Assembly: GCA_947166275.1 (NCBI GenBank)
Contig: CAMVDP010000015.1
Span: 1 to 48,487, forward strand
Length of the DNA: 48,487 nt
Direction of reading: 5' to 3'
From: an uncultured Clostridia bacterium
Lineage (GTDB): Bacteria; Bacillota; Clostridia; Oscillospirales; Ruminococcaceae
In this document: positions 2 to 14,303 of the stretch, piece after piece
Numbering within the stretch: position 1 is the first letter of the stretch
How the letters are laid out: every line of letters starts with the position of its first letter
Position numbers and translations under genes: made by a program
The notes under the pieces: model-generated
What the model was told of the DNA's origin: nothing
Database searches by the model: none
What the model saw: only the letters and a program-made list of their open reading frames with translations

Positions 2-3000
2 GCCAATGGTAAGGACTGCACAGACAAACTCACGATAACCAACAAGACCACGACCAATGCTGAAACAAGCAAGACTCTGAACGCGTACGCGTACGGCAGT
101 GGCAGCACCTGTGAGGTGCGCGCGGAGTACGCGGGTGCGCTGACGCTTGAGGTATCTGACCCCGATACGTACGATCCTGTAGATGGCGGAGGTTACTTCC
201 CGAGCTTTGAGAAGGCGTTCGCGCATGTTGTCCCCGGCAAGAATAATGTGATCCGTCTGGAGGAGAACATTGACGCGAAGGTATTCACGCTTCCGACAAA
301 CATCGGTAACGGCAGCCTCTTTATATGCGGCACAGGTACAAGCGGTTCAGAGAGACACAAGCTGACACTTCACGGTATAACGAGCCTTGCGCCGAGGTAT
401 GAATTTACATTCGATACGATCGAGCTCATACCGCGCAACAGCAAGGGCGACGCGCAGGTACCGACATTCACGATAACCGGCGCTGCGTCAAAGGATATAG
501 GCTTCTACAAAGTAAAGTGCAGCGACGAAACGACGATCAATCTTACCGCTGCAGCGAATGGTATTATAGGTATCCATGATTTCAACGAGTGCAAGATAGG
601 CACTATTTCGGGTACGAACACATCAACACTGGGTGTTTTGTCGGGTTCCGCCGGAACGATCGACAAGATCACGAATTTCAAGACGGTTGCGTTCGTTCCT
701 TCGGTAACAGTCAACAGCTCGATCACGGGTGTAGGCGAGCTTATGTCAAATGGTGCGCTTGTACTTCCCACTACGGCTACAGCAACGATAACACAGCTTG
801 GCGGATTGGCTGAAGGCGAAGCAGCCTTCGGCGCGAATATCGTGCTCCTTGCGGAGACAGAGGAAGGCAAGATAACAAAGCTCCCGAATCTCACGGTATC
901 GAAGTTAAACGCTGCCGATTCGACGATAACCGTAAAGGACAGCACGGCTCCGAGCGGTGACCCGATAGCAATACCGAGCGGCACGAAGCTGTTCACGTTC
1001 AGCGGCACAGTCAAGGCGTTCGAGACTAAGGATGCCAATGGTAAGGACTGCACAGACAAACTCACGATAACCAACAAGACCACGACCGATGAAGTAACAG
1101 GCAAGACTCTGAACGCGTACGCGTACGGCAGCGGCAGCACCTGTGAGGTGCGCGCGGAGTACACGGGTGCGCTGAAGCTTGTAGCGGGAACTTATACCGA
1201 TTACTTCCCGAGCTTTGAGAAGGCGTTCGCGCATACGGTAGCCGGCATGGATAATATTATCACGCTCAACGAGAACGTTGACGCGAAGGTATTCACGCTT
1301 CCGACAAATCTCGGAACAGAAGGTGCGCTCGTGGTATGTAGTACCAGTGGCAAAACTCTCACGCTGCACGGTATAACGAGTCTTGCGCCGAGGTATGACT
1401 TTACACTCGATACGATCGAGCTCATACCGCTCAACAGCAAGGGCGATGCGCAGGTACCGACATTTGAGATAAAAGGCTCGAAAAGTGTTGATCTTGTTAA
1501 TGTAAAGTGTAACAAGGATAAAACCACCATAAATGCGTCAGCAGGTGCGAGCAGCAAATTGTATGTTTCCACATGCGACAGCAAGCTCGGCACACTGACC
1601 GGTACGGCGACATCTGCACTTCATATTATCAATACCGAGTGCGACAGGATCGCGACGTTCAAGGAAATATATGTCGCAGATGGCACAAATAAAGTCAATA
1701 CCTCGATAACAGGTGTTACAAGTGTTTTCGGAGGAGAAGGCGCAAAACTTGTACTTGCTCCGACCGCGACGGCGACGATAAACACGCTCGGAACAGATGA
1801 TTTTGGCGCGAATATCGTGCTCCTTGCGGAGACAGAGGAAGGCAAGATAACAAAGCTGCCGAATCTCACGGTATCGAAGTTACACGCTGCCGAATCGACG
1901 ATAACCGTCATGGATAAGAACATGAACGTGAACACCGGTATTGCGATGGCTTTAGCAAGCGGCACGAAGCTGTTCACGTTCAGCGGCACAGTCAAGGCGT
2001 TCGATGACGCGAACTACACAGCCCTTATCACGATAGGCAACAAGACCACGACCAATGCTGAAACAGGCAAGACTCTGAACGCGTACGCGTACGGCAGCGG
2101 CAGCACCTGTGAGGTGCGCGCGGAGTACGAGGGTGCGCTGGAGCTCGCGGTACTTGACCCCATTACGCGCAATCTTGTAGAGGGCGGAGGTCCCTTCCCG
2201 AGCTTTGAGAAGGCGTTCGCGCATGTTGTCCCCGGCATGAATAATGGTATCACTCTCAACGAGGACGTTGACGCGAAGGTATTCACGCTTCCGACCAACA
2301 TCGGAAACGGCAGTCTCATTATTTACGGCGGTTTAGAGAAGCACAAGCTGACACTTCACGGTATAACGAGCCTTGCGCCGAAGTATACCTTTGAACTCAA
2401 TAGTGTCGAGCTCACACCGCTCAACAGCAAGGGCGACGCGCAGGTACCGACATTCACGATAAGCGGTTCGAAGGATGTTGAACTTAATAAGGTAACGTGT
2501 GACAAGGATAAGACCACAATCAATCTGACGGTGGGCGCGGGCGGAACACTGCGTATATATGACAACGACAGCAAGTTCGGCACATTGACCGGTACGGCGA
2601 CATCTGCACTTTATATTCGCAGTACCGAGTGCGACAGGATCGCGACGTTCAAGGAAATACATGTCTTAAATGGAACAAATAAAGTCAATACCTCGATAAC
2701 GGGCGTTACGACGGTTTACGGACCTGAAGACGCAACACTTGTACTTGCTCCGACCGCGACGGCGACGATAACACAGCTCGGCGGAAAGTCTAGTGGTGGT
2801 ACTGACATTGGCGCGAATATCGTGCTCCTTGCGGAGACAGAGGACGGCAAGATTACAAAGCTGCCGAACCTTACGGTGACGAAGCTTGCCGACAACGGAC
2901 AGCCGATCAATGTAACCGTCAAGAGCGCAGCCGATAACGCGGTGATAGCGGTACCGAGCGGCACGAAGCTGTTCACGTTCAGCGGTACAGTCAAGGCGTT

Positions 3001-4351
3001 CGAGACCAAGGATGCAAATGACAAGGACTACACAGATCGTATCACGATAGGCAACAAGACCACGACCGATGCTGAAACAGGCAAGACTCTGAACGCATAC
3101 GCGTACGGCAGCGGCAGCACCTGTGAGGTGCGTGCGGAGTACGCGGGTGCGCTGACGCTTTCGGTGAACAACGGTGCCGGAACACCTTTCCCGAGCTTCG
3201 AGAAGGCGTTCGCAAATACTGTAGCTAACAAGATTAATGAGATCAAGCTCAACGAGAACGTTGACGCGAAGGTATTCACGCTTCCGACCAACATCGGAAA
3301 CGAAGGCACGCTCAGCATAAATGGCAATTACACTCTTACACTCCATAACATTACCTCTCTCGCTCCGAGATATGATTTCATTCTCAGTAACGTTGAGCTC
3401 ATACCGCTCAACAGCAAGGGCGACGCGCAGGTGCCGACATTTGAGATAAAAGGCTCGAAACGTGTTGATCTTGTTAAAGTAAAGTGTAACAAGGATAAAA
3501 CCACAATCAATCTGACGGTGGGTGCGGGCGAAACACTGCGTATAAATAACAACGACATCAAGTTCGGCACACTGACCGGTACGGCGACATCTGCACTTAG
3601 TATTCGCAGTACCGAGTGCGACAGGATCGCGATGTTCAAGGAAATATTTGTCGCAGATGGCACAAATAAAGTCAATACCTCGATAACGGGCGTTACGACG
3701 GTTTACGGACTTGAAGACGCAAAACTTGTACTTGCTCCGACCGCGACGGCGACGATAAACACGCTCGGAAAAGATGATTTTGGCGCGGATATCGTGCTCC
3801 TTGCGGAGACAGAGGACGGCAAGATAACAAAGCTGCCGAACCTTACGGTGACGAAGCTTGCCGACAACGGACAGCTGATCAATGTAACCGTCAATAACGC
3901 CGACTACAGGCTCGCAAGCGGCACGAAGGTGCTGACAGCAGGCTCGAACACGGATATCGCGGAAGGTATCACGATAGTGAACAAGGACGCGAACGGCAAC
4001 GATCTCACGGCTGTGACATACGGCAGGGAGATAAGAGCCGAGATACCCGATGTTATCGTGCTTAATGTCAACAACAGCGAAGTAGGCACGTTCACAAGCT
4101 TCGAGAAGATGTTCACGGAGCTCAACAGGCTCGCGAACGCAGACAGACAGAATGCGAACAAGTACGAGATAGTAATGAAGTCGGATATCATGACGAAGGT
4201 ATTCACGCTTCCGACCTATGGCAAGAGCATCACAGTCAAGAGTGATGACAACACCAAACGCCGCAAGCTGATCATCGTCGGAGTAAACCTCAACTACAAG
4301 AACTATCCGGTGAACTTTGAGACTGTCGATGTGACGATAGCAAAGTCATAA
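2..4351 (+). CDS. Giant tandem-repeat protein, probably surface or secreted (5' end outside window)
   Basis: The reading frame is open from base 2 and ends in TAA at 4349-4351. A frame call starting at 116 would begin at a GTG inside a repeat unit, so the true start lies upstream; 1449 residues are visible. The protein is four long repeats of 344, 322, 338 and 301 residues followed by a shorter divergent end. Each unit carries FPSFEKAFA, AKVFTLPTN, a LTLHGITSLAP-type strand, NSKGDAQVPTF, TATATI and GKITKLPNLTV. The alternating short hydrophobic strands with Thr, Asn and Gly turns suggest a beta-solenoid or stacked beta domains; this is inferred from pattern only. The visible C-terminus (VDVTIAKS) has no sortase motif, dockerin or membrane segment, so any anchor must be N-terminal or non-covalent. 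It converges on the dockerin-protein operon, which makes a surface role plausible. I recognise no named family. Confidence 0.8.
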   Translation, partial: ANGKDCTDKLTITNKTTTNAETSKTLNAYAYGSGSTCEVRAEYAGALTLEVSDPDTYDPVDGGGYFPSFEKAFAHVVPGKNNVIRLEENIDAKVFTLPTNIGNGSLFICGTGTSGSERHKLTLHGITSLAPRYEFTFDTIELIPRNSKGDAQVPTFTITGAASKDIGFYKVKCSDETTINLTAAANGIIGIHDFNECKIGTISGTNTSTLGVLSGSAGTIDKITNFKTVAFVPSVTVNSSITGVGELMSNGALVLPTTATATITQLGGLAEGEAAFGANIVLLAETEEGKITKLPNLTVSKLNAADSTITVKDSTAPSGDPIAIPSGTKLFTFSGTVKAFETKDANGKDCTDKLTITNKTTTDEVTGKTLNAYAYGSGSTCEVRAEYTGALKLVAGTYTDYFPSFEKAFAHTVAGMDNIITLNENVDAKVFTLPTNLGTEGALVVCSTSGKTLTLHGITSLAPRYDFTLDTIELIPLNSKGDAQVPTFEIKGSKSVDLVNVKCNKDKTTINASAGASSKLYVSTCDSKLGTLTGTATSALHIINTECDRIATFKEIYVADGTNKVNTSITGVTSVFGGEGAKLVLAPTATATINTLGTDDFGANIVLLAETEEGKITKLPNLTVSKLHAAESTITVMDKNMNVNTGIAMALASGTKLFTFSGTVKAFDDANYTALITIGNKTTTNAETGKTLNAYAYGSGSTCEVRAEYEGALELAVLDPITRNLVEGGGPFPSFEKAFAHVVPGMNNGITLNEDVDAKVFTLPTNIGNGSLIIYGGLEKHKLTLHGITSLAPKYTFELNSVELTPLNSKGDAQVPTFTISGSKDVELNKVTCDKDKTTINLTVGAGGTLRIYDNDSKFGTLTGTATSALYIRSTECDRIATFKEIHVLNGTNKVNTSITGVTTVYGPEDATLVLAPTATATITQLGGKSSGGTDIGANIVLLAETEDGKITKLPNLTVTKLADNGQPINVTVKSAADNAVIAVPSGTKLFTFSGTVKAFETKDANDKDYTDRITIGNKTTTDAETGKTLNAYAYGSGSTCEVRAEYAGALTLSVNNGAGTPFPSFEKAFANTVANKINEIKLNENVDAKVFTLPTNIGNEGTLSINGNYTLTLHNITSLAPRYDFILSNVELIPLNSKGDAQVPTFEIKGSKRVDLVKVKCNKDKTTINLTVGAGETLRINNNDIKFGTLTGTATSALSIRSTECDRIAMFKEIFVADGTNKVNTSITGVTTVYGLEDAKLVLAPTATATINTLGKDDFGADIVLLAETEDGKITKLPNLTVTKLADNGQLINVTVNNADYRLASGTKVLTAGSNTDIAEGITIVNKDANGNDLTAVTYGREIRAEIPDVIVLNVNNSEVGTFTSFEKMFTELNRLANADRQNANKYEIVMKSDIMTKVFTLPTYGKSITVKSDDNTKRRKLIIVGVNLNYKNYPVNFETVDVTIAKS
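116..4030 (+). repeat. Four in-frame tandem repeats of 0.9-1.03 kb
   Basis: Unit boundaries, taken at the Val codon of the CEVRAEY junction (or its equivalent), are 116, 1148, 2114, 3128 and 4031, giving unit lengths of 1032, 966, 1014 and 903 bp. The junction DNA coding for AYAYGSGSTCEVRAEY is almost identical in four copies, and blocks such as the DNA for DAKVFTLPTN recur nearly unchanged. Length differences lie in the loops after NIGN and SGTK, always in multiples of three. The window begins inside an earlier copy, so the array is longer than seen here. High DNA identity suggests recent duplication or gene conversion. Confidence 0.9.
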
Positions 4352-4372: not shown

Positions 4373-4397
4373 CCGCTGCATCGTATGATGCAGCGGG
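4373..4397 (+). terminator. First terminator hairpin after the repeat gene
   Basis: A 10-bp perfect stem (4373-4382 with 4387-4396) closes a GTAT loop about 20 bases after the stop codon. It is followed by an A-rich rather than T-rich stretch, so on its own it is a weak terminator. It probably acts together with the next hairpin. Confidence 0.5.
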
Positions 4398-4409
4398 AAA
4401 AGAAAAGAT

Positions 4410-4444
4410 CCCCCCTGCCTTGACCGGCAGGGGGGTTCGTTTTG
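4410..4444. terminator. Bidirectional terminator between convergent genes
   Basis: A 10-bp GC-rich stem (4410-4419 with 4426-4435) with loop TTGACC is followed on the + strand by TTCGTTTT. On the - strand it is followed by ATCTTTTCTTTT. It can therefore end both the repeat gene and the minus-strand dockerin gene, whose stop is at 4454. Confidence 0.85.
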
Positions 4445-4453
4445 TATCAGGAT

Positions 4454-7297
4454 CTATGCTATATGATCAAAGATAGTGGGATGCTTGCCGACGCAGTAAC
4501 GCAGTATCTGTGTCGCGTCCTTTGCGGAAAGCTCGGAATTTGGAAGAACATGTGCGACGGATACGCGGTATTCATCTATGACGCCGTTTTTGTCGCGCAT
4601 ACAGCAGGTCCTTCCGACCTCGAAATAGAGTATCTGTGTGGCGTCACGTGCACCGATCACGCCGTCACCGTCCGGGTCGCCGTATCTGAAGACCTCGACG
4701 TTCTGTGTCACTGCGGCAGTCGAGCCTTTGACGCTGTAATCGCGCGGTGCGCATTTCGGCATTGTTACGTGAAGCTTGTAATTCTCGCCGGCGGTGACGT
4801 TGTTGAACGTGTATGTGCCGTCTGTCGAGACTGTGGTCTGCATTACGGTACCGCGGCTGTTGATGAGCTGAATGGTCGCGTCACCCGTGATGCTTGAGAA
4901 ATTCGGGATAGTGCCGGAGATCGTGTTTCCGGTAGTGCCGCCGGATTGAACCGCTATCTGAGCGACATCGGAGAAATCAGTGAGTGTGCCGTCGGCTTTG
5001 ATGACTCTTATCCAGTAGAAGTACGTCTTGCCCTGCTGAACGGTCTTGTCCGCGTAGATGCTGTACGGGTAGGAATTATCGATCAGCTTTCTTTCTCCCG
5101 TGAGGGTCTCGGAGCGGTAGACATTGGTTCCCTGTGCGTTCAGGACATTTTTGTTGAATGAGATGAAGACAACGCCGTTGTTTTGTGAGATAGTGGATAT
5201 CTGCGGCTTGCCCGTCATCGGGTCGGAATTTGCCGGCGTGGTGAAGGAAAACGGCTTTGAGAGGGCGGATTCGGTACCGTCTTCCATTACTGATGATACG
5301 AAGTAGTAATACTTTTTGCCCGGCTCCCATGTCTTATCGGAGTATGGTGATGCGGTCGTACTTCCGATCAGAACAGGGTCGTTCTCGGTCAGTGACCGAT
5401 ATACCTTATAGCTTTTGGCATTGTCGATCGCTTTCCAGTATACTCTGACCTCGCTGCCGCTCTTGGCTATATCGACGATAACGGGAGTGATCGCGCTTGG
5501 CGGCAATTCAACGCTCAGCTCATTTGAGAAGTCCGATTCGCTGCCGTCTTTGAGTACCGTGGTCACGCTGTAATAGTATTTTTTGTTGTAGCTAAAGCTT
5601 GTATCGCTGAACCTGCAAAAACATAAGCCGTCATACGATGATACTTTACCTGTTGCGGTGCCTATATAGACCGGTGTTCCGCCCGATGCAGCGGTACGAT
5701 AGACTTTATATTCGGTGTCGAATGAATCGACTTCGAACACGCCGTTCCATGACAGATCGACGCTGCGATCGTCTGAATTATACTGCGCGCTGCTCAGGAT
5801 CGGGATATATGAAGCCTGACCGTGAGAATGCCAGTTGAAGTTTTTAAGCTCCGCGTAATACTGAGCGTACGAACCGTCATATCCGTGTATGGTCTTCTTT
5901 ATCGGGCAGTCCTCAAAGGTCTTTTTGTAGGGTGAGTAGTCTCCGTTGTCGATGCTGATAACACTTTCGGGGAGCGTAACGTCAGTGAGGCTTGAACAGT
6001 TCATGAATTCAGAGTACAGGATATGCGATACACCGTTCGGTATGCTTATCTTTTCGAGGGAGGTGCAGTTCATGAAATCGGCGGAATGAGTTGGGTTGCC
6101 AAAGGTCTCAATGCCGTCCCAGTCCTTGATGTCCGGTGTGCTCTCGCTGTCGGTCAGGTAGGATATGTTTTTCAGGTTTTCACAGTCTTTGAACGATCTG
6201 CCATAGATCGTTCTGACGTTATTGTGGAAAATAATGGTGACAAGATCATTGCATCCGTTGAATGCGGAATCGCTGACAGTTACGACCGTATCGGGTATAG
6301 TGAAGGTCGTGCCGCTTTTCCTGGGAGAATAGCGTATGAGATGGGTCATATCCTTTGAATAAAGAACGCCGTCAACGGATGTGAAAGCAGGGTTTCCCGA
6401 CGCTACCCGTATATCTTTGAGATCAACGCAGTCGTGGAATTTGGATCTTATGACAGTGACACTGTCGGGGATGACGAGGGTCTCAAGATACGGATTGTTA
6501 TCTAAAGCCTCGTTTCCTATAATCGTTGTTCCCGAGAGAACGGTGTATTCGGTGCTTGTTTTTCCTTCGGGGTAAAACACAAGCTCATTATTTTTACTAT
6601 ACAGAACGCCCTGATCCGATCGGTATACAGTGTTGCTGGTTGCTACGTTTATCGTTGCCAGTCGGGAGCATCCTTTAAACGTGTCGGTATAAATCTTTGA
6701 CACTTTAGCCGGGATATCAACAGCTGTGATACCGGTACAATTACAGAAAGCGCCGGTATACAGTTTTTCAAGATCCGGTGGGAACTGAATGGATGTGAGG
6801 CTTGTGCAATTGTTGAATGCCGAGGACCCTATTGATTTCAGTTCCTGAGAAAGTGTGATGCTTTCAAGATTTGTGCAGTCGGAGAAGGAAAGCATACCGA
6901 TAGAATCAACTGTTGGCGGAAGCACAACATTACGGATGTTTATGTTTCCCGAAAAAGCTTGACCGGATATTTCGGTGACTGTGTAAGTTTTGTCTCCCGA
7001 CTCAATTGTTTGGGGAATAGTAACTGTTGTGCCAAGACCTGTGTATGATTTTAACGACGCGGTGTTGTCGCTGTAAAGCGCGTACTTAATTCCGTTTGTG
7101 TCCGTATACTCACCTACAAGCTCCGGTTTTGAATAATTTGCTGCGTCCGGAGGATCTGATGTGTAGCTGTACGTTACTGTCTCTCCGACATTATCCGAAG
7201 CGGCGGACGAAACGGCTGAAGGCCCATCCGGAGCTGTAAGGGCAGTCATAGCGACGAATGCTGCAAGCGTCCCTGCCAAGATCCTGTTAATTTTCAT
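4454..7297 (-). CDS. Secreted BspA-type LRR / fibronectin III / dockerin protein
   Basis: 947 residues, non-enzymatic by appearance. Residues 1-33 are a signal peptide. About 60-480 are BspA-like leucine-rich repeats (LRR_5), recognisable by recurring NCTSLTSIQFP, DCTNLESITL and GCNDLVTIIF blocks. Three fibronectin III modules follow (about 500-600, 600-690, 695-780; each has KVYRS or NVYRS and a KYYYSV or TYFYWI strand), then a carboxypeptidase-regulatory-like module (785-870). The C-terminus (about 871-947) is a type I dockerin: its first calcium loop, DPDGDGVIGARDATQIL, is intact, but the second keeps only ELSAKDATQIL and has lost the DxDxD part. A GGGAGGGATC ribosome site precedes the ATG. 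It is the last gene of the operon starting at 11639, lying 53 bases after the ligase-like gene. The dockerin should let it dock on a cohesin; the neighbour at 9036-11639 is the obvious candidate. LRR_5 and FN3 content suggests an adhesin or binding module. Confidence 0.9.
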   Translation of the reverse strand: MKINRILAGTLAAFVAMTALTAPDGPSAVSSAASDNVGETVTYSYTSDPPDAANYSKPELVGEYTDTNGIKYALYSDNTASLKSYTGLGTTVTIPQTIESGDKTYTVTEISGQAFSGNINIRNVVLPPTVDSIGMLSFSDCTNLESITLSQELKSIGSSAFNNCTSLTSIQFPPDLEKLYTGAFCNCTGITAVDIPAKVSKIYTDTFKGCSRLATINVATSNTVYRSDQGVLYSKNNELVFYPEGKTSTEYTVLSGTTIIGNEALDNNPYLETLVIPDSVTVIRSKFHDCVDLKDIRVASGNPAFTSVDGVLYSKDMTHLIRYSPRKSGTTFTIPDTVVTVSDSAFNGCNDLVTIIFHNNVRTIYGRSFKDCENLKNISYLTDSESTPDIKDWDGIETFGNPTHSADFMNCTSLEKISIPNGVSHILYSEFMNCSSLTDVTLPESVISIDNGDYSPYKKTFEDCPIKKTIHGYDGSYAQYYAELKNFNWHSHGQASYIPILSSAQYNSDDRSVDLSWNGVFEVDSFDTEYKVYRTAASGGTPVYIGTATGKVSSYDGLCFCRFSDTSFSYNKKYYYSVTTVLKDGSESDFSNELSVELPPSAITPVIVDIAKSGSEVRVYWKAIDNAKSYKVYRSLTENDPVLIGSTTASPYSDKTWEPGKKYYYFVSSVMEDGTESALSKPFSFTTPANSDPMTGKPQISTISQNNGVVFISFNKNVLNAQGTNVYRSETLTGERKLIDNSYPYSIYADKTVQQGKTYFYWIRVIKADGTLTDFSDVAQIAVQSGGTTGNTISGTIPNFSSITGDATIQLINSRGTVMQTTVSTDGTYTFNNVTAGENYKLHVTMPKCAPRDYSVKGSTAAVTQNVEVFRYGDPDGDGVIGARDATQILYFEVGRTCCMRDKNGVIDEYRVSVAHVLPNSELSAKDATQILRYCVGKHPTIFDHIA

Positions 7298-7350
7298 TGT
7301 GCTGATCCCTCCCGATAATAATAACTGCGAAAGCAGCGGTTTACTTTGAT

Positions 7351-9039
7351 TTATGCTATACCTCTTTCATGAAGATATATCAACAGATCTTCGGACAGCT
7401 CGGTTTTCGGCTGGTCGGTTATCATTTTCCCGAACGTGCTGAGTTTGTCGCCGATACTGTAAAACTCCGACAACACCGAGCGTATCTTACCTGCGCATAT
7501 TTCTGCGCTTGATGCGTCCCCTGCCTGAAGGTACATTTCCTCTCCTATCAGCAGGAACCTTATATAGTTCTCATACTCTTCACCGACCAGCGGCGCGTTC
7601 GCGATCGCGATGTCTTTGTATTTTATCACATTCCCGAAATCACCTTTTGAGAAGGCACATGCAGCTTTGGCAGAGTATGCGACGGATACGTGCTTATTCT
7701 GTGCGATGATGGTGTCTGCTTCCTTGTCCCTTTTATCGGTATCGATCTCGTTTGCCATTACGACAGTGCTGACTTCGGTATTCCATGGATAAAGTGACAG
7801 GGATGTATTATAGTTCCCGAATGCCGCGTAAGCGAGCGGGATCGACATATACAGTGACAGGCCTCCAATCAGTGTCAGAGCGGTTCCCGATGAAAACGAC
7901 GGTCTGAATTTATACTCCTTACCGTCGGATATGTCGAGCAGAAGTATGTAGACAATGAATACAGCAATGAATTGCAGATCAACGTCAAAGAAGCTGTGAG
8001 CGGAGATCACAAAAATCAGCAGACGTTTCTTAAGTGATCCGCCTTTCCTGAAAAATGCCTTGGCGACCGCAATTATCAGCAGTACTGTCGGCAGCCAACC
8101 GACATCCAGCGCAAGCTGGAGAAAGTCGTTGTGAACAAATCTGACCGAGTAGATACCGGTCTGGATACTCTGCTGCAGATAGAAGTAGCCGAGATATCCT
8201 GTGCCGAACGGGTGCCGCAGAACAACGGGAAAAGCGTCACCATAGTAGAGCAGTCGGCCGATAAATGTGCTCTCGCTGAATGAAGTTGACAGGAAACGAC
8301 CGATATTGCCAAGATCGCCCGTTGTTATTGCATACAGCAGGGCTGAAATCAGAACGACCACAGCTGTGCAGAAGAGAACGATTTTTGCCGGTTTGTTCCT
8401 GACTGCAAATATCAGTATTATGACCGACAGGACCGTGAGAATGAATACCGTTCTGCTTCCCGACAGTATGATGCCTGCCATAAATATCGGAATATAAACA
8501 TGATCAAGCTTTGACAGCTTTTCTTTTGTTACGGTTATTATCACCGAAACAAGCAGTATCAGTGCGAAGGTGTTCGAATATTGCAGAAAGCCCGACAATC
8601 TCCCCGCCGGCGCGAAAAACTCATTCCTCGGGGAGAATATCATTACAATTCCCGATATTGCCGTCATTGCGCACGATGTCGGCGGCAGTATGTCAAGGAA
8701 CGTTTCTGCGGGAGTATCCGACTGCATCATCACGAGTGAGAACAGCGGTACAGGCAGGAATCTTACGGCTCCTATGAATGCCATGCCCGCGTCTGCGGCC
8801 CAGAAACAGCTCAACAGGTAAAATGCCTCAACGGACAGTATCGCTATGCCTGCAGTGCTTGCTCTGAAAATGATCTGTCTGTTCCTGTGGATCGTGTATA
8901 TCAGGTATCCGCACAGGAATGCGGCTGCCGCACATGAAAGATACTCGTTGAACAGACCCGCTGCTAACAGTGAAACTGCTATGAAACCGTGCGGTACAGT
9001 GGGCAGGGAAGGTGAGCGGTTTACAGTCTGTGTTTTCAT
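7351..9039 (-). CDS. O-antigen ligase-like (Wzy/WaaL superfamily) membrane protein with C-terminal helical domain
   Basis: 562 residues with about ten to twelve hydrophobic segments through residue ~400. Features fit the O-antigen ligase/polymerase family: FLQYSNTFALIL, the SGSRTVFIL turn, and the large-loop motif FVHNDFLQLALDVGW, in which the His is the family's conserved catalytic-loop residue. The remaining C-terminal 150 residues are soluble and helical (AKAACAFSKGDFGNVIKYKDIAIANAP), resembling TPR helices, as often seen in Firmicute members. The start overlaps the stop of the scaffold gene by four bases (ATGA), so the two are translationally coupled. In Gram-positives such proteins polymerise or transfer an undecaprenyl-linked glycan; here the product could decorate the adjacent surface proteins or the wall, which is inference. 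No other capsule gene is in view. Confidence 0.75.
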   Translation of the reverse strand: MKTQTVNRSPSLPTVPHGFIAVSLLAAGLFNEYLSCAAAAFLCGYLIYTIHRNRQIIFRASTAGIAILSVEAFYLLSCFWAADAGMAFIGAVRFLPVPLFSLVMMQSDTPAETFLDILPPTSCAMTAISGIVMIFSPRNEFFAPAGRLSGFLQYSNTFALILLVSVIITVTKEKLSKLDHVYIPIFMAGIILSGSRTVFILTVLSVIILIFAVRNKPAKIVLFCTAVVVLISALLYAITTGDLGNIGRFLSTSFSESTFIGRLLYYGDAFPVVLRHPFGTGYLGYFYLQQSIQTGIYSVRFVHNDFLQLALDVGWLPTVLLIIAVAKAFFRKGGSLKKRLLIFVISAHSFFDVDLQFIAVFIVYILLLDISDGKEYKFRPSFSSGTALTLIGGLSLYMSIPLAYAAFGNYNTSLSLYPWNTEVSTVVMANEIDTDKRDKEADTIIAQNKHVSVAYSAKAACAFSKGDFGNVIKYKDIAIANAPLVGEEYENYIRFLLIGEEMYLQAGDASSAEICAGKIRSVLSEFYSIGDKLSTFGKMITDQPKTELSEDLLIYLHERGIA

Positions 9040-11639
9040 TCTATCTTTGTTTTCGTGCGTTTTCTGTGGTGTTTATTTTTTCTTCCGAGAAGGAGACAGC
9101 CTGTCAATGCCGCGGGAATGATGACAGCAGCCGCTACTCCGGTGCCCGGATTTGAATAACCGTTGGAACTGCCGCTGCCACCGCCGCCGCCGTAACTGTT
9201 GTTGTTATCCGGTAAGGTGTGATCGTCTGTATCCGTTATTGTTGCGTCTTTTCCATTTATGGTATCGACAAACATATATGGCGAGAACGAATATGCTTTG
9301 AAGCAGATGAATTCCTGTCCGTTTTCAACGATTATGCTGCTGTCGACGTATTCGGGGATGCCGTTCTCGATATGATATACACCTATGGCACTCGATACCG
9401 GGTGGAGTTTTTTCGGGAGCGGCAGCGTGAATTTCACATAACCGTTGTTTTTGAGTGAGCGGAGATACTGTCCCGTGGCGGTATCATATAAGCTGATATC
9501 GAACACATAGTATTCGTGTCCCGACATACCGAGCGCACGCAGCGCCTTGACTGCCATTTTATCAGCTTCATCGGTATTCTGCAGAATAATGAACGTGTCG
9601 TTGTAAAAGAATCTGCGTTTTGTTGATGTCCTTACTGAGCCGCTGTCAAGATCTGACAGCCTCGATTCAAGCGTTATCTTGTTCGCGGACTTTGTGGTAT
9701 CATCGTCGATATCATCGTTGTCTGTGTCATCTTCATCGATCGGGTCATCGAAATAGACATTTGTATTCTGGTTCGCAGCATCAGATGTTGTTATGGCGGG
9801 AGAATTGTTGTTGTTGCTGCTGTTGGTCACGGCGGGGTTATAGTATATTACCCGCAGATATGCGGTAGTGTTTGTGGGCTGCCAGAGCTCCTGCCGCTCA
9901 CGATTATTGTCTTTGATATATGTCAGACTGCTGTATGTGATGTCAAAGCGGTAGCTTCCCGTATTCAGCCCGTATCGCGAGCGGAGTGTCGCTGCGAATG
10001 TAAGACCTCTGCCGACATCGATGATATTACGGTTGTTGGATGCGGATAAGCTGAAATAGCCGGGACCGTATGAAGACGTTCCTCCGGTTATTGTCGGAGA
10101 CCACGAGACCAGTTCAAACGAATTCCTGTCATATTCACATCTGACCGATAAAATATCGGCATATTTATCTATGGCAGGAATGTTTATGTAAACGACAAAC
10201 GAGTCTCCCGAGTATATCTCTGAACGCGACAGGCTCAATCCGCCGCCCGTTACGGGATAACTGCTGCTTGAAGATACGCTTACGGACGCGCTCTTGCTGC
10301 TCGGAGCCCACAACTGGATATATGTATATCCGTCGCTCTCGTCCACATAAGAGATGCTGCTTTTGGTCAGACTGAAATAGTAGTTACCTACAGCTGCGTT
10401 TGATTTTACTTTCAGCTTTGCCGTCAGTGTTTTCCCGCTGTCAAGGCTGATAGATCTTTCGGCGTTTGACGCTGAAAGAGCGAAATAACCGCTGCCTTTA
10501 TCCGAAACCCCGCCCGGGACATTCGGAGCCCATTCGGTGACTTCAAATATGCTGCTGTTGAATTCGACCTTTATCGTCATTGTATCGGCACTCACCATTT
10601 TGGGTATCACGACCGAGACCGTGAACTCTTCGTTCGGTCTGAACGATGATCCCGAAACAGTGATGCCGCCGCCTGTTGCAGGGACAACGGGTGTGGGCGT
10701 GGGTGTGGTGCCGATAGCTTTGATATTGGCTGTTGTACGGGTGGGCGCCCACATCTCAACGCTTGTGATGCCGTCGGTGCCAACGAATGAGATGCTTGAC
10801 TTTGTAAGTGTGAACGGGGAATCTCCCGTGGAAACACTGGATTTGGCCTTCATTTCCGCGGACAGCGTAAGTCCTCTGGTAAGATCTATCGCCGGTGTGT
10901 CGTTGGAAGCCGAGACACTGAAAAAGCCTTCTCCGGAATGATACTCTCCACCCGCGATCACAGGGGCCCATGATGTAACTTCAAAGGCGGTGCGGTCAAA
11001 CTCGACCTTCAGGGTCGCGGTGTCGGCATAATCGGAAAAGACGGGTATATTAATGGTCGCTGTGAAAGTCTCACCTGCTCTGACTTCTTTTTTTGACAGG
11101 TCTATCCCTCCGTAAGTTCTGGGATATGTATCTGCTGCGCGCACTTTAACGGTCACTGCTGTGGCGGTGGGGGTCCACAGTTCTGTGGAATTGGCTCCGT
11201 CGGTGACAGAGAGAGAGCTCTTCTCGAGTATGATATCGTGATCTCCGATCACAGCGGTGCTTTTGACGCGAAGAGAAGCGGACAGGGTCAGTCCGCGCGA
11301 AAGATCTATCACGCTTGAGTCGTTTGCGGCAGAGAGAGCTATGACTCCTGCGTCGCTTACCGCGATGCAGTTACCGAACGATGACTGCCACGAAGTGACG
11401 TCGGATGTCACCTCAAATGTATCCGGGTCAAATCCTATCTTCAGCGTCGCTGTGTCCGCATTTGCAAGAGCGGGGATATTAATTGATAAGCTGAAAACTT
11501 CATCGGGCTCAAGGTCTTTGTCCGAAACACTGATACCGTTGACGGACGCTGCATGAGCGGGAACGGACAATCGGCCCGGGTAACCGAAAAACACAAAAAG
11601 TGCGAATACCAGACATACTGTTATACGACGGATGTTCAT
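9036..11639 (-). CDS. Wall-anchored protein with four cohesin-like modules and NPGTG sorting signal
   Basis: 867 residues. A signal peptide ends near residue 31 (VPAHAAS). Four homologous beta-sandwich modules of about 130 residues follow (about 33-160, 165-310, 322-455, 460-600). Each has a GExFTVxINIP-type first strand, a YADTATLKVEFD-like strand, a GYFSLSASN block, RGLTLSA, and a closing ELWxPT strand. This order resembles cohesin modules of scaffoldins (GDxVxIPV, YDPxxLEI, GxxATIxxK), though sequence similarity is distant and another CBM/cohesin-like fold is possible. After an Asp-rich linker (DDPIDEDDTDNDDIDDD) comes a C-terminal domain with KAYSFSPYMFVD, then a Gly/Ser spacer. NPGTG at residues 830-834, a hydrophobic stretch and a basic tail form a sortase-type anchor. 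First gene of the surface operon; the start has GGAGAGAG upstream. Confidence 0.8.
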   Translation of the reverse strand: MNIRRITVCLVFALFVFFGYPGRLSVPAHAASVNGISVSDKDLEPDEVFSLSINIPALANADTATLKIGFDPDTFEVTSDVTSWQSSFGNCIAVSDAGVIALSAANDSSVIDLSRGLTLSASLRVKSTAVIGDHDIILEKSSLSVTDGANSTELWTPTATAVTVKVRAADTYPRTYGGIDLSKKEVRAGETFTATINIPVFSDYADTATLKVEFDRTAFEVTSWAPVIAGGEYHSGEGFFSVSASNDTPAIDLTRGLTLSAEMKAKSSVSTGDSPFTLTKSSISFVGTDGITSVEMWAPTRTTANIKAIGTTPTPTPVVPATGGGITVSGSSFRPNEEFTVSVVIPKMVSADTMTIKVEFNSSIFEVTEWAPNVPGGVSDKGSGYFALSASNAERSISLDSGKTLTAKLKVKSNAAVGNYYFSLTKSSISYVDESDGYTYIQLWAPSSKSASVSVSSSSSYPVTGGGLSLSRSEIYSGDSFVVYINIPAIDKYADILSVRCEYDRNSFELVSWSPTITGGTSSYGPGYFSLSASNNRNIIDVGRGLTFAATLRSRYGLNTGSYRFDITYSSLTYIKDNNRERQELWQPTNTTAYLRVIYYNPAVTNSSNNNNSPAITTSDAANQNTNVYFDDPIDEDDTDNDDIDDDTTKSANKITLESRLSDLDSGSVRTSTKRRFFYNDTFIILQNTDEADKMAVKALRALGMSGHEYYVFDISLYDTATGQYLRSLKNNGYVKFTLPLPKKLHPVSSAIGVYHIENGIPEYVDSSIIVENGQEFICFKAYSFSPYMFVDTINGKDATITDTDDHTLPDNNNSYGGGGGSGSSNGYSNPGTGVAAAVIIPAALTGCLLLGRKNKHHRKRTKTKIE

Positions 11640-11798: not shown

Positions 11799-11834
11799 TA
11801 TACTATTATAGTATAACACTAAATATACATTTAG
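11799..11834. promoter_or_regulatory. Two AT-rich palindromes overlapping the surface-operon promoter
   Basis: 11799-11815 is a perfect 8+1+8 palindrome (TATACTAT-T-ATAGTATA). 11819-11834 is a second inverted repeat (CTAAAT-ATAC-ATTTAG). The first covers the -10 box and the second fills the spacer of the minus-strand promoter, the expected position for repressor operators. No regulator gene for it is identified. Confidence 0.5.
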
Positions 11835-11838
11835 TCAA
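11810..11838 (-). promoter_or_regulatory. Promoter of the scaffold-ligase-dockerin operon
   Basis: Reading the minus strand, TTGACT (11833-11838), a 17-base spacer and TATACT (11810-11815) with TGT directly before it. Transcription would start near 11803, leaving a leader of about 165 bases before the ATG at 11639. A second TATAAT lies nearer the gene (about 11660) but has no good -35. Confidence 0.7.
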
Positions 11839-12031: not shown

Positions 12032-12135
12032 TAAACAGTATATGTGAATCGGAGTTTTTTCCTTATGCGCGTATCGTGCGCGCTTCGGGAATACTTTTTT
12101 TACCACATCCTTGCGGAACGAAAGGTGGGCGCACA

Positions 12136-14214
12136 ATGGACGAGAGAATGGCGAAGCTGCTCGACGAATACATGGATAAGATAGCGGATGTGAGCAGCCG
12201 TGAGGAGTTCAGAACGCTTGATTCGCTGAAAAATGATATCCTCGCGGAAAACGCGTGCGACGCGGAGCTTTCATTCAAGCACAAGCTGCTCTCGGCTCTC
12301 GGGGAGCTCGTCTATCGTCGTGAGCACTCGACGGAGAATGGCGGCATGAGCCTGTCCGGCACCGAGAAAGAGGAGCTTGAGAAGGTGAAGGAGCTTATCG
12401 ACAGCAACCTGTTCACCTACCATTTTCAGCCTATTGTGCGTGCCGATACGGGAGAGATATACTCGTACGAGGCGCTGATGCGCGCGAAGGACTGCCGCGG
12501 GGTGACGCCGTTCCACATACTCAAATACGCGGAGCTCACCGGACGTCTCAATGAGATCGAGCAATATACGTTCCTCAACATACTCGATTTTGTGTCGGAG
12601 CATCGTGAAGAGCTCGGAGACAGGCTCGTGTTTATAAACAGTATGCCGAGCGTGAAGGTGGCACCGGAGAAGTCCGAGGAAATAGATCGGCGGCTCTCGG
12701 AGCTGGCGGACGCGGTGGTGGTGGAGATGACCGAGCAGTCGGAGTTCACCGATCACGACCTTGATGAGGTCAAGGAGCGCTTTCACAGGCTCGGAGTCCG
12801 TATCGCGGTCGATGACTATGGTACCGGGTACTCAAACGTGAGCAATCTGCTGCGGTACACGCCGAACTACGTGAAGATAGACCGTATGCTGCTCAGCGGC
12901 ATTGAGTCCAACCCGAACAAGAAGCACTTTGTCAGGGAGATAATCGATTTCTGCCATGATAATGACATACTCGCGCTCGCGGAGGGAGTGGAGACCTTTG
13001 AGGAGCTCCATACCGTGATATTGCTGGGTGCGGATCTGATACAGGGCTACTACACGGCAAGACCCGCGCCCGAGATTACGGCGGCGGTGCCGTATGATAT
13101 CCGTGCGGAGATACGCATGTGTGCCGCAGAGCGCGAGACAGGGCGTCTCACAAGGACATACGCCGCCGACGCGGGCGAACATGTGTCGCTTGAGCGCCTT
13201 ACAAGCGATGAATACAACTGCATCGTGGTTGGGAGCGGCTATTCCGATGCTATGATAACGGTGTCGGGGTCGGCTTTCCGCGACTCGGAGATACATATTG
13301 AGACCGTTGATGGCTTCAAGGGCAGGATAGTGCTGGATTACGCGCACCTGTCGAATGAAGTGGGGCAGCCGTGCATCGATATCGGTGAGCACAACGATGT
13401 GACCATAGTGATAAACGGCGAAAACCGGCTGAAAAACGGTGGTATACGCGTTCCCGAGACCTCGCGAGCAGTGTTCGAGGGCGAGGGGGAGATATACATC
13501 GAGCCCGGCAACGGTGATTACTACGGTATCGGCAATGACCTTGCCTCTGCGCACGGAGAGCTCGTGTTCGACCTTGACGCGTCGGTGCGGATAAAGGCTA
13601 CGAGCCATTCGGGCGTATGTATCGGTTCGGGCCTCGGCGGAGTCATAAACATACTCAGAGGCGTGTACATGCTTGAAGCTCACGGGAGCAAGGGAGTATG
13701 CGTGGGTTCGTTCGACGGGGCTACGGAGATCAACATCTGCAACTGCGACCTCGAAGCCAAAGCCGCGGGTGCGATGAACACAGTCATAGGCTCGCTTGAC
13801 GCGGGTGCCGCGGTCAATGTGAGGGGTTCGAGCCTGCGCTGCAGCGGCTACAGTCGTACCGTGACGGGCATCGGTTCGGTGAACGGAGGAAGCGCCCGCC
13901 TGAATATCGAGAATTCGAGCGTGAAGATAGATCTCGGCGGCGAGGAGATCACCGCGTGCGGCACGATGAACGGAAGTTCCGATGTGAAGGTGAGAGGGTG
14001 TACATTCCGCGCAAGCTGTGAAGGCGTGAACGCGCTGTTGTTCGGCGGCAGCGATGGTGACACGCGGCTCTCGATATTTGAAGCGGACGCGGCGATGAAG
14101 CTTTCTACGGCTCTCGGACGCTGCATAACCGCTCCCGATGAGAACATAGATGTCAGGAACTGTATGTGCAGCGTGACTATGGATGACGCAGTATATGACA
14201 GGATAGTGAACTGA
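12136..14214 (+). CDS. EAL-domain c-di-GMP phosphodiesterase fused to a C-terminal beta-solenoid domain
   Basis: 692 residues from the ATG at 12136, chosen because AAAGGTGGG lies just before it; an in-frame ATG at 12076 has no ribosome site. Residues 1-90 are helical. Residues 95-330 are an EAL domain with catalytic residues in place: E112 in YEALMR, the FINSMPS Asn, the Glu of VVEMTEQ, D226-D227 in DDYGTGYS, K247 in VKIDR, E283 and E286 in AEGVE, and QGYY. It should hydrolyse c-di-GMP to pGpG; there is no GGDEF domain. From about residue 360 to the end the protein switches to repeating short strands with Ile/Val and Asn/Gly turns (ITVSGSAF, VTIVINGENRL, INILRGVYMLEA, INICNCDLEAKA, LNIENSSVKI), typical of a right-handed beta-helix. 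That domain has no signal peptide, so it is cytoplasmic here, which is odd. Its own promoter lies upstream; the kinase gene follows on the same strand. Confidence 0.9.
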   Translation: MDERMAKLLDEYMDKIADVSSREEFRTLDSLKNDILAENACDAELSFKHKLLSALGELVYRREHSTENGGMSLSGTEKEELEKVKELIDSNLFTYHFQPIVRADTGEIYSYEALMRAKDCRGVTPFHILKYAELTGRLNEIEQYTFLNILDFVSEHREELGDRLVFINSMPSVKVAPEKSEEIDRRLSELADAVVVEMTEQSEFTDHDLDEVKERFHRLGVRIAVDDYGTGYSNVSNLLRYTPNYVKIDRMLLSGIESNPNKKHFVREIIDFCHDNDILALAEGVETFEELHTVILLGADLIQGYYTARPAPEITAAVPYDIRAEIRMCAAERETGRLTRTYAADAGEHVSLERLTSDEYNCIVVGSGYSDAMITVSGSAFRDSEIHIETVDGFKGRIVLDYAHLSNEVGQPCIDIGEHNDVTIVINGENRLKNGGIRVPETSRAVFEGEGEIYIEPGNGDYYGIGNDLASAHGELVFDLDASVRIKATSHSGVCIGSGLGGVINILRGVYMLEAHGSKGVCVGSFDGATEINICNCDLEAKAAGAMNTVIGSLDAGAAVNVRGSSLRCSGYSRTVTGIGSVNGGSARLNIENSSVKIDLGGEEITACGTMNGSSDVKVRGCTFRASCEGVNALLFGGSDGDTRLSIFEADAAMKLSTALGRCITAPDENIDVRNCMCSVTMDDAVYDRIVN

Positions 14215-14227
14215 CGCGGGGCGCGGT

Positions 14228-14243
14228 CGGGTTGACAAACCCG
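14228..14243. promoter_or_regulatory. Perfect inverted repeat over the kinase promoter -35
   Basis: CGGGTT (14228-14233), GACA, AACCCG (14238-14243). It overlaps the -35 box (14232-14237), and there is no T-tract after it. It is thus more likely an operator than a terminator for the EAL gene, though a weak terminator role cannot be excluded. Confidence 0.4.
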
Positions 14244-14261
14244 CTGATGCTGTGATATAAT
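14232..14261 (+). promoter_or_regulatory. Promoter of the kinase-receiver operon
   Basis: TTGACA (14232-14237), 18-base spacer, TATAAT (14256-14261) preceded by TGA (extended -10). It lies 42 bases before the ATG at 14304. Confidence 0.8.
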
Positions 14262-14303
14262 TACCTGTAATATGCTTCAGGAGACGATAACGGAGTAGGA
14301 AAA

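Follow-up and report, generated by a model that had tools for sequence, protein, structure and literature searches.

Introduction

Cohesin-dockerin pairs are best known as couplers of enzymes. The closest known system to the one described here is the group-4 dockerin subsystem of Ruminococcus flavefaciens FD-1, in which the anchor ScaE is found together with the cohesin-dockerin proteins ScaF and ScaH, the leucine-rich repeat (LRR)-cohesin-dockerin protein ScaI and LRR-dockerin proteins, and for whose pairs the authors consider a possible role in structuring the cell surface (PMC2930009, PMC5301203). Here we analyse a three-gene set on the minus strand (11639 to 4454) of contig C15 (GenBank CAMVDP010000015.1) from an uncultured Clostridia bacterium of the Ruminococcaceae, the whole 48,487 bases of which are referred to as the window. 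The set encodes a scaffold with four cohesins, a membrane protein with a Wzy_C domain (PF04932) and a protein with LRRs, FN3-like repeats and a dockerin. We suggest, giving the idea about even weight, that this operon would make a non-catalytic cohesin-dockerin surface assembly displaying LRR adhesins, with the Wzy_C protein as its probable protein O-oligosaccharyltransferase.

The likeness to the FD-1 group-4 set lies in architecture, not in sequences: both have cohesin-dockerin adaptors, LRR-dockerin and LRR-cohesin-dockerin proteins, and a wall-anchored cohesin. In FD-1, however, the cellulosome is complete, with about 200 dockerins and a few dozen cohesins (PMC2930009), whereas here the ratio is reversed, with about five cohesins per dockerin of the class described below. 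In addition, the anchors here include multi-cohesin NPxTG scaffolds, in contrast to the one cohesin and LPXTG motif of ScaE, and the second calcium loop of the dockerin is degenerate. The combination of tandem-cohesin scaffolds with dockerin cargo is shared with cellulosomes, amylosomes and mucinolysomes, and the scaffoldins of Limousia also have no glycoside hydrolase domains (PMC12997984). Many dockerins of those systems carry enzymes; here the repeated cohesins of a cellulosome are present, but plant-wall enzymes borne on dockerins are found on none of the eight class members scanned, out of 29.

Results

The three-gene locus

The genes of the set and the sites at its ends are as follows.

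9036 to 11639, minus strand: scaffold gene (867 amino acids (aa); a start like a signal peptide, then four cohesins, a linker rich in acidic residues and Asn, a conserved C-terminal domain and an NPGTG sorting signal)
7351 to 9039, minus strand: gene for a membrane protein of 562 aa with a Wzy_C domain (PF04932); its start overlaps the scaffold stop as ATGA
4454 to 7297, minus strand: gene for the LRR/FN3-like/dockerin protein (947 aa; own ribosome-binding-site-like sequence)
11810 to 11838, minus strand: promoter-like site ahead of the operon (seen by consensus scan only; 10 of 12 matches)
4373 to 4435, no strand given: two terminator-like stems past the operon, between convergent genes (consensus scan only)

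The Wzy_C gene starts inside the stop of the scaffold gene and has no obvious ribosome-binding site by eye, which fits translational coupling of the two, while the LRR gene begins 53 nucleotides past the Wzy_C gene behind a ribosome-binding-site-like sequence that was likewise judged by eye. With a promoter-like site ahead of the scaffold gene and terminator-like stems past the LRR gene, the three genes likely form one operon with a single transcript; over the whole window the scan returned 17 promoter-like sites, where shuffled sequence gave 10.1, and 15 terminator-like sites, where it gave 7.4. A Pfam scan of the three proteins found no catalytic glycoside hydrolase domain. The original prediction for this stretch had proposed one transcript, a Wzy-like protein coupled by ATGA and no attached glycoside hydrolase, and the overlap and the Pfam scan agree with it, the overlap and the flanking sites making the transcript probable.

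The scaffold and its cohesins

The scaffold comprises the following parts.

11136 to 11540, minus strand: cohesin module 1 (residues 34-168)
10713 to 11114, minus strand: cohesin module 2 (residues 176-309; PF00963, 19.1 bits)
10266 to 10676, minus strand: cohesin module 3 (residues 322-458)
9846 to 10250, minus strand: cohesin module 4 (residues 464-598)
9270 to 9689, minus strand: C-terminal domain common to the scaffolds, without a Pfam name (residues 651-790)
9138 to 9152, minus strand: NPGTG motif of sortase type, with a hydrophobic stretch and a basic tail behind it

All four modules repeat a single domain, with modules 2, 3 and 4 sharing 45%, 39% and 31% identity, respectively, with module 1, and they can be assigned by profile to the cohesin family (PF00963). 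This identification came from profiles and relatives, since single-sequence searches with the scaffold against Pfam, NCBIfam and the PDB returned nothing useful, the Pfam scan giving no cohesin match. When PF00963 was run against the scaffold's own genome, one window module was found with an E-value of 0.0016, its score lying under the 24.1-bit cut-off. In a scan of 12 of the 14 modules of the genome, six matched PF00963 at E up to 0.1 (best 2.7e-8). Among 14 aligned members of the scaffold family, seven match PF00963, with a best E of 1.4e-25, the window protein not being one of the seven; the module profile also matches solved scaffoldin cohesins, weakly (best E 0.00046). Thus, the four repeated cohesin-like modules of the original prediction are borne out by their repeat identity and by their relatives, although a window module taken by itself stays below the Pfam threshold. 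No carbohydrate-binding module was recognised on the window scaffold, the one Pfam match of this kind, to CBM_48 at E 0.13, lying below threshold (13.1 bits, cut-off 22.4). Of 15 scaffold relatives in the protein search, four carried a source name, each Ruminiclostridium sp., and a contig-level search across genomes returned only two weak matches, to Pyramidobacter.

The N, P, T and G columns of the NPxTG motif are invariant in the 14-row scaffold alignment, and the genome contains four sortase matches, three of which lie near each other on one contig; together with the hydrophobic stretch and basic tail, this supports the wall-anchoring role that had been predicted for NPGTG. As sortases are present, the host is probably Gram-positive. 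Three tandem sortase genes (L160 3838-7453, contig C7) are possibly the anchoring enzymes for NPxTG proteins.

The LRR protein and a dockerin class with one calcium loop

The third protein is divided as follows.

5858 to 7000, minus strand: BspA-type leucine-rich repeats (about residues 100-480; LRR_5 PF13306, E 6.1e-53)
4928 to 5830, minus strand: three FN3-like beta-sandwich repeats, as counted by eye (about residues 490-790)
4724 to 4921, minus strand: CarboxypepD_reg-like domain (residues 793-858; PF13620, E 3e-6, 27.9 bits, below the 32.3-bit cut-off)
4457 to 4684, minus strand: dockerin, first calcium loop intact, second degenerate

The tail of this protein is, by profile, a dockerin of the PF00404 family. 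The window copy matches PF00404 weakly (E 0.21; best of the genome's three copies 0.0034), whereas a profile built from all three reaches solved dockerins at E 1e-7. The FN3-like part matches Ig/FN3-type Pfam models below their cut-offs, among them a non-catalytic C-terminal domain of GH85 enzymes; PF00041 itself was not matched in the Pfam scan but is carried by most listed homologues of this part, the search with the second half of the protein being dominated by FN3 proteins. Of the predicted LRR, FN3 and dockerin parts, the first and, through the three-copy profile, the last are well placed, the FN3 part remaining at sub-threshold level.

The three copies in the genome, namely that of the operon and two on the cohesin-dockerin adaptors of contig C2, share 46-48% identity and are members of a wider class. 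From 31 dockerins gathered from loci of relatives, two conventional ones (G034 L154, L162) were left out, leaving 29 class dockerins. In 25 of the 29, each of the ligand positions 1, 3 and 5 in loop 1 is D, N or S; the same holds for loop 2 in one, and both DAT-type helices are retained. Instead of the two calcium loops expected of a dockerin, the class has one that is recognisable, and it is, by its sequences, a distinct dockerin class. A further dockerin match on contig C18 (E 0.007) was dropped, the protein being a solute-binding transporter.

The proteins bearing the 29 class dockerins comprise 14 cohesin adaptors, five LRR proteins, seven with LRRs and a cohesin, and three others, which include InlB-type repeats and a Cthe_2159 carbohydrate-binding protein. 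No catalytic glycoside hydrolase was found on the eight that were scanned with Pfam; the scan did not extend to the other 21 (14 of them adaptors of 336-549 aa), nor to several PF00404 proteins, such as those of G034:C8, the second G034:C15 frame, G057:C34 and G038:C99.

In a profile search, these cohesins are present in 18 of 71 genomes of the genus, with 141 matches, and the same 18 genomes hold 32 class-dockerin matches, 29 of them strong. Cohesins outnumber class dockerins in all 18, by about five to one overall; five of the 18 genomes have a completeness of at least 90% and a contamination of at most 5%. Many of the loci retrieved have a dockerin gene next to a cohesin gene. Specifically, a multi-cohesin NPxTG scaffold adjoins an LRR-dockerin gene in three relatives (G063, G059 and G024), and only the Wzy_C gene lies between the two in the genome studied here (G000). 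The class-dockerin profile also has 10, 13, 21 and 12 matches in G003, G053, G065 and G067, respectively, which have no cohesin of this type and may use another cohesin class.

The genome itself (1.88 Mb, 49 contigs, 81% complete) contains 14 cohesins, ten of them beyond the operon on contig C2. There, a second cluster (L010 3947-12386) encodes a six-cohesin NPNTG scaffold, two single-cohesin proteins and two cohesin-dockerin adaptors. Beside it lies the gene for a 721-aa protein that, by a motif, looks like a clostripain-type peptidase. A quick tree of 142 cohesin modules, each 90 residues or longer, groups modules by architectural type (21 label changes, against 69 when shuffled), although 71 of its 139 inner branches are unresolved; because modules of the same type group together, the parts of the cohesin system look old and differentiated.

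The Wzy_C protein

Two regions are recognised in the second protein of the operon.

8074 to 8484, minus strand: Wzy_C domain with R196, R262 and H303 (residues 186-322; PF04932, E 3.7e-15)
7354 to 7767, minus strand: C-terminal TPR-like tail (residues 425-562)

The Wzy_C family spans polymerases, ligases and protein O-transferases. Indeed, the domain is found both in ligases and in PglL, and the catalytic residues of WaaL and PglL have been named, as have seven residues seen only in PglL, Q178, N180, G316, G318, H400, E404 and P406 (PMC3643930). R196, R262 and H303 match the WaaL/PglL residues by order and motif, without an alignment to PglL; R262 and H303 are invariant in six of six aligned relatives and R196 is present in five. 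Counterparts of the PglL-only residues, placed by position and motif with slightly different spacing, are Q153, N156, G279, G281, H348 and D352, invariant in all six relatives, so that six of the seven positions have a conserved counterpart, one with E replaced by D, while the last is D354 rather than P. No PglL-specific Pfam match was obtained, PglL_A (PF15864) being unmatched in a Pfam copy whose inclusion of that model was unchecked. A further difference from PglL is that the matches described in PMC3643930 are Gram-negative, in contrast to the probable nature of the host here. Our best guess is that the Wzy_C protein is a protein O-glycosyltransferase.

Genes for pglL often lie beside the gene of their substrate, 21 of 31 being found with pilin genes (PMC3643930), a precedent for the placement of the Wzy_C gene beside a candidate substrate. 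In Gram-positive bacteria, WsaB of Geobacillus stearothermophilus and WsfB of Paenibacillus alvei are predicted S-layer O-transferases that also have a Wzy_C domain, followed in WsfB by a C-terminal TPR motif (PMC2943079); this comparison is by description only. WsaB and WsfB, however, sit in S-layer glycan clusters or loci, none of which was noticed among the window proteins scanned. A profile of ten tail sequences of the Wzy_C protein matches TPR chains (E 1.6e-11), and the window copy has no TPR match in a single-sequence Pfam search.

With a limit of E 1e-6, a profile of the Wzy_C family finds the protein in six of the 71 genus genomes; in a sample of 295 genomes from the order it finds 13 with a limit of 1e-20, two of these being genus members. 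With G085, taken from an earlier single-sequence search, these sets provide 18 homologues. All six genus genes abut a large secreted-looking repeat protein, which is an LRR-dockerin protein in G000, G004 (where the order is LRR-dockerin, Wzy_C, single cohesin) and G048, a WG-repeat protein with a dockerin-like end in G003 and G006, and in G046 an LRR protein with a long threonine-rich tract whose gene overlaps that of Wzy_C. Profile support for dockerin-like ends was obtained in G006 (9.5e-7) and G003 (8e-5), for an assumed database of 1000, those in G046 and G177 having been judged by eye; Pfam finds no dockerin in any of the four proteins. Outside the genus, six of 12 homologues have a surface-type neighbour, with WG repeats in G167, SLH in G220, LRRs in G231 and G336, a dockerin in G357, and both LRRs and SLH in G368. 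In total, 12 of the 18 abut a protein with LRR, WG, SLH or dockerin features. For the order of cohesin, Wzy and dockerin in G357, which belongs to another family, the dockerin is clear, and the upstream protein has no significant cohesin match (E 0.083).

We tentatively propose, as a possibility short of even weight, that the order-sampled Wzy_C proteins with a TPR-like tail would be dedicated protein O-oligosaccharyltransferases for adjacent surface repeat proteins, here decorating an enzyme-free assembly with one-calcium-loop dockerins. The Wzy_C gene was considered as a core component of the cohesin system, but this was rejected, the gene being present in two of the 18 cohesin-bearing genomes. 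Separately, the threonine-rich LRR protein of G046 (L169 8466-11999; 1177 aa, TATETATT tract) is an obvious candidate substrate for O-glycosylation.

Flanking genes

Convergent with the operon and near the contig start, a frame of 1411 aa (116 to 4351, plus strand) has about four long repeats by eye and no Pfam match above its cut-off, and looks like a repetitive surface protein. Divergent from the operon (12076 to 17129, plus strand) lies a gene for an EAL protein, the C-terminal half of which (about 380 aa) has no Pfam match, followed by one for a hybrid histidine kinase that has receiver and Hpt domains.

Discussion

In the assembly that we suggest, the scaffold would be exported and then fixed to the cell wall through its NPGTG signal, and the four cohesins of the operon, perhaps together with those of contig C2, would hold the LRR/FN3 protein by its C-terminal dockerin, as their families lead one to expect. 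The LRR part would, by family, be an outward-facing adhesin. The Wzy_C protein, if of the PglL/WsfB kind as its residues, TPR-like tail and neighbourhood suggest, would transfer a glycan from a lipid carrier to the scaffold, to the adhesin or to both. A non-catalytic assembly had already been put forward in the original prediction, and comparative genomics strengthens it, through the 141 cohesins against 29 dockerins, the eight enzyme-free class members and the gene neighbourhoods.

Several findings weigh against this assembly. Four of the 18 genomes have cohesins but no class dockerin, and the class-dockerin profile also matches, mostly weakly, 13 genus genomes without these cohesins. When all PF00404 matches are counted, the cohesin excess disappears in G034 (six and six) and G038 (two and two), and G034 encodes a GH5 cellulase with a conventional dockerin, the one such enzyme found; the genome of the operon is, moreover, incomplete. 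The Wzy_C gene occurs in no more than two of the 18 genomes with these cohesins, and five of its 18 homologues have no surface-protein neighbour, while a sixth, in G177, has an LRR protein only two genes away. An LRR_5 gene abuts the Wzy_C homologue in six of 18, which speaks for the assembly, at most 0.38 being expected when each LRR_5 match is taken for a gene and genes are spaced at one per kb (P 8e-7 for independent genomes, which the three of one genus are not); this test, however, was chosen after the neighbours had been seen. Lastly, the dockerin of the operon might bind the C2 cohesins rather than the operon's own.

A distinct possibility, although we hold it at below even weight, is that the cohesin-dockerin assembly is real and the Wzy_C protein a mere passenger in the operon that polymerises or ligates wall or capsular polysaccharide. 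The breadth of the Wzy_C family, the 16 of 18 cohesin-bearing genomes in which the gene was not found, the missing PglL-specific Pfam match and the homologues of G085, G108 and G111, which adjoin housekeeping or lipoprotein genes by eye, are all consistent with such a role; the secreted-looking repeat protein beside each of the six genus homologues argues against it, and no polysaccharide-biosynthesis gene was seen among the ten other window proteins scanned.

It is also conceivable, but somewhat unlikely, that the neighbours are not partners, with the LRR-dockerin protein docking on the C2 scaffolds and the operon scaffold binding cohesin-dockerin adaptors. Both clusters are present in the genome, the three dockerins resemble each other, and in the poorly resolved quick tree modules 1-3 of the window fall loosely with single anchoring cohesins. 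Against this stands the gene order, the scaffold being next to an LRR-dockerin gene in three relatives and one gene apart here.

We regard it as improbable that the locus is a remnant or the periphery of an ordinary cellulosome, the enzyme-borne dockerins being missing from the incomplete assembly or of an unrecognised class. The 81% completeness, the GH5 enzyme of G034 and the 50 PF00404 matches of the 18 genomes (E up to 0.1; one to six per genome, equal to the cohesins in G034 and G038) would allow for it. The cohesin excess, however, holds in all 18 genomes when class dockerins are counted and in 16 of them when every PF00404 match is included; five of the 18 are at least 90% complete. Conventional dockerins, moreover, lie mostly in a frame of 781-862 aa that recurs in 16 of the 18 genomes. 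The copy in the genome studied here (L011 5571-7958, contig C19; 795 aa) places its conventional dockerin between CHB_HEX_C_1/Fn3_assoc repeats and has no catalytic domain in Pfam, the other 15 frames not having been compared; a 523-aa dockerin protein of G057 likewise has CHB_HEX_C_1 repeats and no catalytic domain. Of the three class dockerins and one conventional dockerin of this genome, none is borne on a protein with a catalytic match, and GH48 was found in none of 22 genomes, although no control genome gave a match either. That the modules are cohesin-fold beta-sandwiches binding something other than dockerins is very improbable: the window modules fall below the Pfam cut-off and the four genomes with cohesins but without class dockerins would fit, but relatives in the family match PF00963 with E as low as 1.4e-25, and cohesin genes have dockerin genes as neighbours in many loci.

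Among the literature matches listed, seen as titles and abstract openings, there was no enzyme-free system of this kind and no link between Wzy_C and dockerins. In the FD-1 microarray, most dockerins of LRR proteins showed no interaction, six LRR-bearing entries appearing in the interaction table (PMC5301203), and the operon provides a concrete candidate pair for such LRR-dockerins. Likewise, the Wzy_C protein is a candidate enzyme for their glycosylation. If the suggested assembly is correct, the cohesin-dockerin lock would also be used to build the cell surface, in a set of species with an approximately fivefold excess of cohesins over matching dockerins and an adhesion-like cargo.

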